64,000 bases of DNA from an uncultured Clostridia bacterium (GTDB lineage: Bacteria > Bacillota > Clostridia > Oscillospirales > Oscillospiraceae), in contig CAMFFO010000002.1 of NCBI GenBank assembly GCA_945949735.1, positions 27,851-91,850 of the forward strand, written 5' to 3'. Position 1 is the stretch's first letter. Each line of letters begins with the position of its first letter. The position numbers and the translations under genes are program-made. The notes beneath the pieces are model-generated. The model was not told where the DNA came from. It saw only the letters and a program-made list of their open reading frames with translations, and did not search any database. Shown here piece by piece: positions 53,671 through 56,936 of the stretch.

Positions 53671-53877
53671 TAAATTGGTGTTTGTCGAATTCTTGCTGTC
53701 ATTGCGAACCAGTCCGCACACTGGTGTGGCAATCCCCCAACAATTCAGGACGGTTCGTTAGGGCGTTTGTCCGTTTTTTGCACATTTCCCGTCTTACCGG
53801 GGGATTGCCACGCCAGTGTGCGCACTGGCTCGCAATGACAGTATTTTTTCAGGTGCGCACTTGTAAACAACAATTCA
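53671..53877. repeat. Inverted-repeat element, type B, copy 5
   Basis: Directly adjoins the type C element. Ends TAAATTGGTGTTTGTCG and GTAAACAACAATTCA; core GTCATTGCGAACCAGTCCGC and its inverse. No gene in 53,436-53,913. Confidence 0.85.
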
Positions 53878-53913: not shown

Positions 53914-55113
53914 TCAGGCTTCGTCGTAGGTGGCGGAGAGGTCGGCGTAGTAGGCGAGCATTTCCTCTTCGGTGTCGAAGTTGGCGACGTACATCTGGTT
54001 TGCCATGGCTCCGGACAGGGCGTCGGGAATCCGGCCCGACATGACCATCTTGGGGCCGTACTTCATCATGACCTCGTAATCATCCAGCTTGTAGTGCCGT
54101 CCGTCCCGGCGGCCGAAGAAGGCGCAGTAGTGGTGGTTGCCCACGGGCTTGGTGCTCCGGTCAAAGGCCACCATATCCGCCCAGATCTTGTAGACGTCAG
54201 TCTCCTGGGAGTAGTTGTACATATCGGGGGTAAAGCCGCCTGCCGGGCGCATATTGACCTCCAGACCCAGGATATCCCCCTTCTTGCCCAGGCCCTCCTG
54301 ATCCTCGTTGAGGACGAAGAACTCCAGATGGATGAACCGGCTCTTGACGCCGAAGGCCTCCACGGTGCGCAGTCCCGCGTCCCGGATGGCGTCGGGAAGC
54401 TCCTTCACCAGGTAGTACACCGAGTCGCCGCCGTTGTTGACAATATCCATGAGGGAGTAGGGGGTGATGTTTCCGGACTCGAAAAGGGGCTGTCCCTGGG
54501 AATCCACAATGGCGTCATAGGTCTGGACATAGCCGTTGACGAATTCCTCCATGATGTACACATCATCGTCCTTGGTATCGATGAAGAACCGAAGCTCCTC
54601 GTCATCATGGAGCTTGTAGGTGTTGTTGGCGCCGACGCCGTTGTCGGGCTTGACCACCACGGGGTAGCCAACCAGGTGGGCAAACTCCGCGGCGTCCTCA
54701 TAGCCCTCCACCAGGTGATACCGGGCGGTGGGAAGGCCTGCCTTGGCGTAGAACTCCTTCATGGCGGACTTATACTTGATCTTGTACATATCGCCGCTCT
54801 TGGGGCCGGTGGTGATATTGAACTCGGTGCGCAGCCAGGCGTCGCGCATAAGCCAGTATTCGTTGTTGCTCTCCAGCCAGTCGATCTTGCCGTACTTGAA
54901 GCTGAAGAAGGCCACCGCCTTGAATACTTCGTCGTTGTTCTCCAGGGAGGATACCTTATAATACTCGTCCAGGGAGTCCCGCAGCTCCTGCAGCAGCTCG
55001 TTATAGGGGCAGTCACCGATGCCAAGCACCCGCATACCGTTGTTGCGGAGCTCACGGCAGAATTTCCAGTAGGTCATGGGGAAGTTGGGGGAAATGAATA
55101 CAAAGTTTTTCAT
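53914..55113 (-). CDS. ATP-grasp carboxylate ligase of unknown product
   Basis: A 399-residue ATP-grasp enzyme. N-terminal Rossmann-like lobe 1-110 (FVFISPNFPMTYWKFCRELR), then the ATP-grasp fold: VVKPDNGVGANNTYK (central lysine and flexible loop), YIMEEFVNGYVQTYDAIV hinge, and LEVNMRPAGG with the metal-binding Glu and Asn. It should join a carboxylate to an amine via an acyl phosphate. It lies third in an operon after two esterases, 22 bp from the nearest. Substrates are unknown; biotin-carboxylase-like and peptide ligase roles both fit. AGGAGAGAG precedes the ATG at 55113. Confidence 0.82.
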   Translation of the reverse strand: MKNFVFISPNFPMTYWKFCRELRNNGMRVLGIGDCPYNELLQELRDSLDEYYKVSSLENNDEVFKAVAFFSFKYGKIDWLESNNEYWLMRDAWLRTEFNITTGPKSGDMYKIKYKSAMKEFYAKAGLPTARYHLVEGYEDAAEFAHLVGYPVVVKPDNGVGANNTYKLHDDEELRFFIDTKDDDVYIMEEFVNGYVQTYDAIVDSQGQPLFESGNITPYSLMDIVNNGGDSVYYLVKELPDAIRDAGLRTVEAFGVKSRFIHLEFFVLNEDQEGLGKKGDILGLEVNMRPAGGFTPDMYNYSQETDVYKIWADMVAFDRSTKPVGNHHYCAFFGRRDGRHYKLDDYEVMMKYGPKMVMSGRIPDALSGAMANQMYVANFDTEEEMLAYYADLSATYDEA

Positions 55114-55135
55114 AATCTCTCTCCTTTGTTTGGGA

Positions 55136-55876
55136 TCAGCCAAGCAGCCAGGGAAGGTAAGTGCGCACCATCTTAAACCACCAGGGCCAATCATGATTCA
55201 CATCGTAACCCCAGTATTCAAACCGGGTGGGAATGCCCTTGCTCCGGCAGACCGTATCCAGCCAGCGTGTGCTCTCCAGCAGAGGCTCCTCCCAGGCACC
55301 CTGGCCGCAGACCACCAGGCTCTTCTGGCTGCGGTACAGATCCATGTACCAGTGATCCTGGGGCATATTCTGCAGGTACAGGCAGGGACAGTTGTTGTAG
55401 ACCAGATCGTCGCAGTAGTCTCCAAAGAACAGCTTGTTGTCGTACAGGCCGGAAATGGCAAAACAGCTGTCGAAAAGATCCGGCCGCCGGTAATAGAGAT
55501 TCGCCGCGTGCATTGCGCCCATGGAGCAGCCGAAGGTCATGATAGGGTCGCCATTACAGGCGATATAGTGGATGGTGGGCACCAGCTCGTTTACAACATA
55601 ATTGTACCAGCGCTCATGATTCTCAATGCGCCAGCGGTTGTCCGCGCCCTGTGCCGCCCAGGCCTCGTTGTCAATGCAGTCCACACTGAAAACCCGGCAC
55701 TGTCCGGATTCGATCCAATCCGCCCAGGCGTCCAGCATCTTGAAGTTCTCAAAATCGAAGAACCGGCCTCCCTGGCAGGGAATGAACAGAACGCTCTTAC
55801 CGCCGTGACCGTAGACCTTGAATTCCATTTCCCGGTTCAGATAGCTGCTCCAATGTTTCTCGTAGCGAATTTCCAT
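55136..55876 (-). CDS. Alpha/beta-hydrolase esterase, esterase D/antigen 85 type
   Basis: A 246-residue serine hydrolase. Nucleophile elbow F-G-C-S-M-G-A near residue 115, acidic residue in FSVDCID/WYMDLY regions, and terminal His in YDVNHDWPWWF. No signal peptide, so it is cytosolic. It resembles the putative esterase family PF00756. Encoded 19 bp after the other esterase and 22 bp before the ATP-grasp gene; the pair may trim or load an ester-linked small molecule. Confidence 0.8.
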   Translation of the reverse strand: MEIRYEKHWSSYLNREMEFKVYGHGGKSVLFIPCQGGRFFDFENFKMLDAWADWIESGQCRVFSVDCIDNEAWAAQGADNRWRIENHERWYNYVVNELVPTIHYIACNGDPIMTFGCSMGAMHAANLYYRRPDLFDSCFAISGLYDNKLFFGDYCDDLVYNNCPCLYLQNMPQDHWYMDLYRSQKSLVVCGQGAWEEPLLESTRWLDTVCRSKGIPTRFEYWGYDVNHDWPWWFKMVRTYLPWLLG

Positions 55877-55895
55877 TTACCTCTCTCCTTGTGTT

Positions 55896-56654
55896 CTATT
55901 TCAGTCCCAGACACTCCATAAAAATGGGCACCTGTTTTTCCCAGGAGGCCTCCGAATGGTTGCCGTCGGGAACGATCCGCAATGCCAGGTTCACCCGCTT
56001 GGTCATGAGCAGGTGGGCTGTGGAGACAATGGCCTCCTCATTGGCGGCGTGGTTGAAGATCTCCAACGCGCCGTAGTCCAGATATACGGTGGTGTCCCGG
56101 CGGATATGGGCACGGGCAACCATCTCCAGAACCTTGCCGGGGCTGACCCACAGGCTGGGGCTCAGGCAGGCGGCCCGCTGGAAGATGTGGTTATAGGTAC
56201 ACACGGCATACAGGGCCATCAGGCCGCCCATGGAGGAGCCGGCGATGATGGTGTTTTTCCGGTCGGGAAGGGTGCGGTAGTTCCCGTCAATATAGGGCTT
56301 CAGGGTGTTGACCAGCCAGTTCATGTAGACGCTTCCCTTGCCCTTGATCTTCCCCATTTCGGAATTCTGAAAATGAAAGGGAGAATACTCGATCAGCCGA
56401 CCGTTTCCTTCGTGGTTGCACTCCACGCCTACGATGATGAGCTGCTTCTTACTCTTTTCCATGTAAGCATTCATGCCCCAGGACTTGCCGTAGGTGGCAT
56501 CCTCGTCGAAGAACACGTTATGCCCGTCAAACATATACATCACCGGGTATCGTCTGTCGGGCTCCCGGTCATAGGAATCGGGAAGATAGATATATGCCCG
56601 GCGGGGCTTGTCGCCGGACAACTTCGGAATGACCACATTCCATTTCTTTACCAT
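55896..56654 (-). CDS. Alpha/beta-hydrolase esterase (second of pair)
   Basis: A 252-residue serine hydrolase of the PF00756 type: RRYPVMYMFDGHNVFF start, nucleophile elbow AGSSMGGLMALYAVC, acid near DYGALE and His in PDGNHSEASW. GGAGGAG precedes the ATG at 56654. First gene of the operon, reached from the promoter at 56857-56885 through a 195-base structured leader. Not the same subgroup as the next esterase (elbow GSSMG versus GCSMG). Confidence 0.82.
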   Translation of the reverse strand: MVKKWNVVIPKLSGDKPRRAYIYLPDSYDREPDRRYPVMYMFDGHNVFFDEDATYGKSWGMNAYMEKSKKQLIIVGVECNHEGNGRLIEYSPFHFQNSEMGKIKGKGSVYMNWLVNTLKPYIDGNYRTLPDRKNTIIAGSSMGGLMALYAVCTYNHIFQRAACLSPSLWVSPGKVLEMVARAHIRRDTTVYLDYGALEIFNHAANEEAIVSTAHLLMTKRVNLALRIVPDGNHSEASWEKQVPIFMECLGLK

Positions 56655-56743
56655 CGATTGGTCTCCTCCAATGATTGGAAAGTCAGGGCTGCACCGCAGC
56701 ATTCGGCAAGGAAGCACAACGAGATGCTTTGTACCGGTTCAAA

Positions 56744-56789
56744 GTTCCGAAAATCTGGGAATGCCGTAGGTATTCCCCATTTTTGGAAC
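56744..56789 (-). promoter_or_regulatory. Structured leader hairpin upstream of the esterase/ATP-grasp operon
   Basis: On the minus strand GTTCC...GGAAC, AAAAT...ATTTT and GGGAAT...ATTCCC pair in register to give a 46-base hairpin. A second short hairpin (CGCACAAGTGCG) lies nearer the promoter. There is no T run, so it is not a plain terminator. Confidence 0.5.
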
Positions 56790-56856
56790 TGCAGATATGG
56801 CGCAAAAAATACGTTGATATCCGCAGACGCACTTGTGCGGTGCTGTCGTAGACAAT

Positions 56857-56885
56857 AGTATAATGAGGAATTTAAGGATTGTCAA
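56857..56885 (-). promoter_or_regulatory. Promoter of the esterase/ATP-grasp operon
   Basis: Minus strand TTGACA (56885-56880), 17-base spacer, TATACT (56862-56857). The expected start near 56850 leaves about 195 bases of leader. Confidence 0.75.
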
Positions 56886-56936
56886 CACAGGAAAGAATTT
56901 CTGTGAAAAACATTCGACCGCGAGGGGAGGACAGCT

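Follow-up and report, generated by a model that had tools for sequence, protein, structure and literature searches.

Organization of the operon

The window, meaning the whole 64,000-nt stretch of DNA analyzed here, carries on its minus strand a promoter, a leader of ~196 bases ending at the ATG of est1 (position 56654), two hydrolase genes, est1 and est2, and a gene for an ATP-grasp enzyme (Table 1). A sequence-only reading of this DNA had proposed a TTGACA-17-TATACT promoter, a structured leader with a 46-base nested hairpin, and two PF00756-type esterases with an ATP-grasp enzyme, with genes for transport, carrier proteins or known biosynthesis absent next to them. Direct reading bears out the promoter, the hairpin is present within the leader, and profile matches confirm the enzymes, although those to ATP-grasp profiles are weak. 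Annotation of the neighbors likewise agrees: upstream of the operon lie genes for a PHP/HisJ-like phosphatase and MutY, and downstream a repeat and a convergent gene for a PpiC-domain protein. A PADLOC search for a defence system gave no match. A known biosynthetic cluster was dropped as a candidate when a literature search on operons combining ATP-grasp enzymes and esterases yielded nothing relevant.

Table 1. Operon features and their positions in the window
Feature	Position	Strand	Remarks
Sigma-70-type promoter, TTGACA-17-TATACT	56857..56885	-	Read directly
-35 box, TTGACA	56885-56880	-	17-base spacer to -10
-10 box, TATACT	56862-56857	-	Read directly
MITE-like palindromic repeat copy	56683..56850	-	Ends CAGCACCGCA...TGCGGTGCAG, flanked by TA...TGA; between transcription start and RBS
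Hairpin at the apex of the repeat, GTTCC...GGAAC	56744..56789	-	The 46-base hairpin of the sequence-only reading; helix 6 of the covarying fold, 43 copies
RBS, GGAGGAG	56663..56669	-	Read directly; kept 3' of the insertion; identical in L039
est1	55896..56654	-	PF00756 serine hydrolase, 252 aa
est2	55136..55876	-	Divergent PF00756-fold hydrolase, 246 aa
ATP-grasp ligase	53914..55113	-	399 aa; start judged better than that of a 426-aa ORF

Near the operon, 5' of its promoter, the window also contains a hairpin followed by a T-run (56893-56935). In several relatives (L039-L065) a hairpin and T-run (GTCCGCC...GGGCGGATGTTTTT) precede the -35 box by ~20-35 bases, even in cases where a different gene comes before the operon. 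This feature may be a terminator or an operator.

The leader is a copy of a dispersed palindromic repeat

When the leader was used as the query in a DNA search of its own draft genome, which is 81% complete, the search returned the locus itself and 31 near-full-length copies of its subfamily with 74-83% identity, together with several partial ones. Of the leader, 168 bases constitute one diverged copy of a dispersed element of ~161 bp that is palindromic over its full length. The terminal motif GGCAACACCGCATAAT, allowing up to two mismatches, marks 64 + 65 (~129) ends in this genome, compared with 1 + 0 for the reversed pattern used as a control. The distance between motif ends is exactly 161 bases in 47 of 61 fetched elements; internally shortened versions of 66 bases that retain both ends also occur. 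Copies occupy dozens of unrelated sites in both orientations. Once oriented alike and aligned, they fall into three subfamilies that differ in the interior but share the terminal inverted repeats TAnGGCAACACCGCA...TGCGGTGTTGCCnTA and one fold. The window copy belongs to the first subfamily, of which it is the most diverged member (~82%), and its ends are decaying (CGACAGCACC versus the consensus AAGGCAACACC).

The distribution of the repeat is uneven. Among 121 genomes of the genus the terminal motif is present in high copy number in only some (e.g. 53 + 53 ends in a 98%-complete genome) and is lacking in most, as expected of a mobile element. A search in phages found no copy. The element is shorter than 500 bp, has no transposase gene, and exists in many dispersed copies with terminal inverted repeats, target duplication and empty sites. 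Since it is short, non-coding and of high copy number, with inverted ends, a TA duplication and empty sites, we assign it to the miniature transposable elements as a palindromic MITE; it represents a new, apparently orphan family with 50+ copies in an uncultured, Faecousia-like gut genus.

No transposase gene with the repeat ends (GGCAACACCGCA) was found, and the 81%-complete draft genome contains no DDE_3 (IS630-type) gene. A longer element bearing these ends was sought in the same genome (G000) and in a candidate from another (G678), and none was found. The latter candidate, an apparent autonomous transposon of 1,272 bases (L195, 836-2107, on G678:C14), proved to be two separate 161-base elements. 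This pair flanks a sortase-like gene, and its outer ends mimic a 1.27-kb transposon. The unpaired ends that were inspected in the source genome are truncated or diverged copies, or lie at contig ends.

We also compared the element with palindromic repeats described in other bacteria. Closest in kind are two small palindromic MITEs, ERIC/IRU of enterobacteria (127 bp) and the pneumococcal RUP (PMC2229807, PMC10969869), which resemble it in being short, non-coding near-palindromes of high copy number, with inverted repeats at their termini, TA at the ends and empty sites in relatives; RUP inserts at TA targets (PMC2229807, PMC10969869). The present element differs from both in its unrelated sequence, its length of 161 bp and its occurrence in a Faecousia-like genus of the Oscillospiraceae. 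In addition, RUP has IS630-Spn1, whereas a parental IS for the element was not found in the draft genome. The Correia/NEMIS repeats of Neisseria are palindromes of 107-155 bp, one copy of which lies directly 3' of the mtrCDE promoter and forms a hairpin in the transcript (PMC2229807, PMC10969869). The resemblance is in the position of a palindromic repeat just 3' of a promoter, while the ends of the two elements differ. YPAL/RU-2 of Yersinia (~168 bp) is of nearly equal length, palindromic and intergenic, with empty and filled sites, but it has no TA at its termini, carries its inverted repeats in the interior and shows duplications of 3-26 bp (PMC2229807); the present element has terminal inverted repeats and TA.

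A second inverted repeat, TGTCATTGCGAGCCAGTGCGCACACTGGCGTGGCAATCCCCC ... GGGGGATTGCCACACCAGTGTGCGGACTGGTTCGCAATG, is found at window positions 53700-53860, directly 3' of the ATP-grasp gene. Together with the leader element it brackets the operon between two repeat families. A piece resembling it also flanks an element copy at another locus (L090).

Insertion between promoter and est1

The leader was compared among 22 relatives in which the start of est1 can be read. In the nearest relative (L039, genome G204) est1 is 94% identical and is preceded by the same TTGACA-17-TATACT promoter and GGAGGAG, but the element is missing and the leader measures only ~27 bases. A TTGACA-17 promoter precedes est1 in 21 of the 22 relatives (with TATACT in 20), and their leaders are 27-62 bases long. 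The remaining relative (L061) has neither such a promoter nor the hairpin.

Filled and empty sites elsewhere in the same two genomes speak for duplication of a TA target. At one pair of loci the source genome reads GACTTA[element]TTAACAAATG (L111) and the relative G204 reads GAGTTAACGAAAG (L191), which amounts to a TA duplication. Two further sites filled in the source genome are empty in G204 (L084 versus L192, and L100 versus L183, the former of the latter pair being a double insertion). At the window copy itself the target duplication is degenerate (TA/TGA).

Taken jointly, insertion of the repeat between promoter and est1 and conservation of the est1-est2-ATP-grasp operon (see below) form the reading we favor, at a probability of roughly 0.85; this figure does not extend to the product of the enzymes. 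In the source lineage, the palindromic element of ~161 bp would have entered a TA located 3' of the transcription start and 5' of the RBS, sparing both promoter and RBS and lengthening the 5' UTR from ~30-60 to ~196 bases. Less probably, the insertion is older, preceding the split from the L039 lineage and followed by loss there, since within its subfamily no other copy has diverged as far as the one in the window. Whatever their age, such natural pairs of sites with and without an element of this family allow the effects of insertion on mRNA to be measured.

Possible consequences of the insertion for the RNA

An inserted repeat could have been co-opted, the hairpin in the 5' UTR being cut by RNase III or protecting and insulating the mRNA so that expression of the operon is altered in the source lineage. 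The whole element falls within the stretch from transcription start to RBS and has kept a strong fold, and an action of this kind is reported for Correia/NEMIS and ERIC elements (PMC10969869, PMC2229807). By analogy with Correia/NEMIS, the most likely effect would be cutting by RNase III or a change in mRNA stability. However, the case is a single locus and the ends of the copy are in decay, and we consider co-option rather unlikely.

The leader RNA is predicted to fold with -64 kcal/mol, compared with -49.3 ± 4.4 kcal/mol for shuffled sequences (z -3.3). The consensus of 43 distinct copies is one long imperfect hairpin spanning the whole element, with the 46-base hairpin as its apex. Among these copies 97.1% of cells are paired and double changes occur at 15 of 45 pairs, which exceeds every one of 500 shuffles and every slid control. 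Such covariation, together with the uniform length of 161 bases, would also be expected if the element were a family of structured non-coding RNA genes, or a retrotransposed RNA, rather than a DNA transposon. The terminal inverted repeats, the TA target duplication and the empty sites fit a DNA element, as do the 66-base internally shortened versions with both ends, and paired changes in long palindromes can stem from template switching during replication (PMC8794818). For the latter reason the covariation is not taken as proof of RNA function, and we regard an origin as RNA genes as improbable.

The sequence-only reading had taken the leader for a riboswitch or other RNA switch. A ligand-sensing RNA controlling the operon is very improbable, strong fold and true covariation notwithstanding: the structure is missing from the operon in the 22 relatives, dozens of copies lie at unrelated sites in both orientations, and Rfam gave no match to the leader at the gathering score, the weak matches being at chance level. 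A known leader RNA is rejected along with the riboswitch by the absence in relatives and the lack of an Rfam match. Of the two refuting conditions set by the sequence-only reading, the one on the leader tells against an RNA switch and the one on the genes (see below) in favor of a joint system; the fold covaries among repeat copies across the genome and not among orthologous leaders, and so supports the element rather than control of the operon. Covariation over repeat copies that resembles RNA conservation is a general trap, and here one false riboswitch candidate is removed. The letters of the stretch could not reveal that this leader belongs to a multi-copy repeat; the search of the source genome did. 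Weak matches of the repeat to miRNA-type Rfam models concern eukaryotic families, fall below the gathering score and were disregarded.

Conservation of the three-gene operon

In a sample of 201 genomes of the family, the ATP-grasp gene is present in 37, est2 in 34 and est1 in 27, and all three are present in 23. Every genome with est1 (27/27) and nearly every one with est2 (32/34) has the ATP-grasp gene, so that esterases mostly without the ligase are not what is seen. Fisher tests of co-occurrence in these genomes gave p values, which ignore shared ancestry, of 2e-29 for the ATP-grasp gene with est2 and 2e-25 for the ATP-grasp gene with est1. The order est1-est2-ATP-grasp is kept in most loci, including those of Candidatus Faecousia, Candidatus Scybalocola and a distant family of Bacillota, and est2 or est1 lies elsewhere or is reversed in some lineages. 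Across the phylum the ligase gene is uncommon, being present in 12 of 399 genomes.

In Peptoclostridium acidaminophilum, Pararhizobium qamdonense and Sinorhizobium sp. RAC02, an est2 homologue (profile scores of 307, 285 and 276 bits, respectively) lies immediately 3' of the ATP-grasp gene. These pairs in Peptoclostridium and Rhizobiaceae make the ATP-grasp gene and est2 look like the core, with est1 an addition. The operon is conserved in gut Clostridia, and its ligase-hydrolase core occurs even in soil bacteria. The suspicion that the three genes form one system is thus supported by co-occurrence, by the kept order and by the ligase-est2 pair in other phyla. The genes would constitute an old, patchily distributed metabolic module under its own conserved promoter. 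At the level of the genes the sequence-only reading was sound and merits a biochemical test, while its RNA switch does not.

Homologues of the ATP-grasp enzyme with 53-62% identity were also seen in three unannotated records named 'Bacteriophage sp.' from human faeces (MT836893.1, MT838712.1, MT838107.1). These are short contigs and may be bacterial DNA.

The enzymes and their likely chemistry

Against the PF00756 profile (cut-off 22 bits), Est1 scores 94.5 bits (1e-26) and Est2 38.4 bits (2e-9); no NCBIfam model matched Est2. The nucleophile of Est1 is S141 in GSSMGG, accompanied by H233, and that of Est2 is S118 in GCSMG, accompanied by H228 in a conserved HDWxWW motif. The serine of the G-x-S-x-G elbow is invariant in the aligned members of both groups and the histidine is conserved. 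The predicted fold of Est2, a good model (pLDDT 82.5), most resembles those of feruloyl esterase 5vol, S-formylglutathione hydrolases and Ag85, so that either hydrolysis or acyl transfer is possible. Both proteins have the fold, the serine nucleophile motif and the histidine in common with PF00756 esterases such as feruloyl esterase, S-formylglutathione hydrolase and the mycolyltransferase Ag85; unlike these, they are stand-alone domains encoded in an operon with an ATP-grasp enzyme, and Est2 has its own HDWxWW.

In the ATP-grasp enzyme K155, E189-E190, E285, N287 and R289, residues of the ATP/Mg type, are invariant among 28 homologues. Its top solved relative in both sequence and fold searches is RizA (4wd3; E 9e-15, with 18% identity in the fold search). 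The structure model is poor (pLDDT 61), and the substrate class consequently rests on weak homology. The L-amino acid ligases RizA and BacD (YwfE) are ATP-grasp enzymes of similar size and the best match in sequence and fold. However, the identity is ~18%, no phosphonate, bacilysin or rhizocticin genes lie nearby, and the partners are hydrolases instead; the resemblance is too weak to claim membership in that class.

From these similarities, the ATP-grasp enzyme would most likely act in the manner of an L-amino acid ligase, forming an acyl-phosphate from a small carboxylate and then coupling it to an amine. Est2, the near-constant partner, and Est1, the accessory one, would hydrolyze or transfer an acyl or ester group of the substrate or product. 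We offer this scheme, in which ligation joins a small carboxylate and an amine and the hydrolases attack an ester or acyl group, as tentative, with the odds somewhat against it. The chemistry suggested by the sequence-only reading, a ligase whose product the esterases trim or load, agrees with the enzyme families but is likewise conjectural. A broader view, in which the ATP-grasp enzyme and Est2 are the core of an undescribed pathway that crosses phyla and both makes and trims one small amide or ester, Est1 being added in gut Clostridia and expression being rewired here by the co-opted element as an RNase-processed 5' UTR, is speculative and as a whole unlikely. The operon itself, as an uncharacterized combination of ligase and hydrolases, has firm comparative support and is open to direct assay. 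Elsewhere in the source genome (G000:C5:13852-15420; L006, L007), a single open frame of 621 aa contains two PF00756 esterase domains in tandem.
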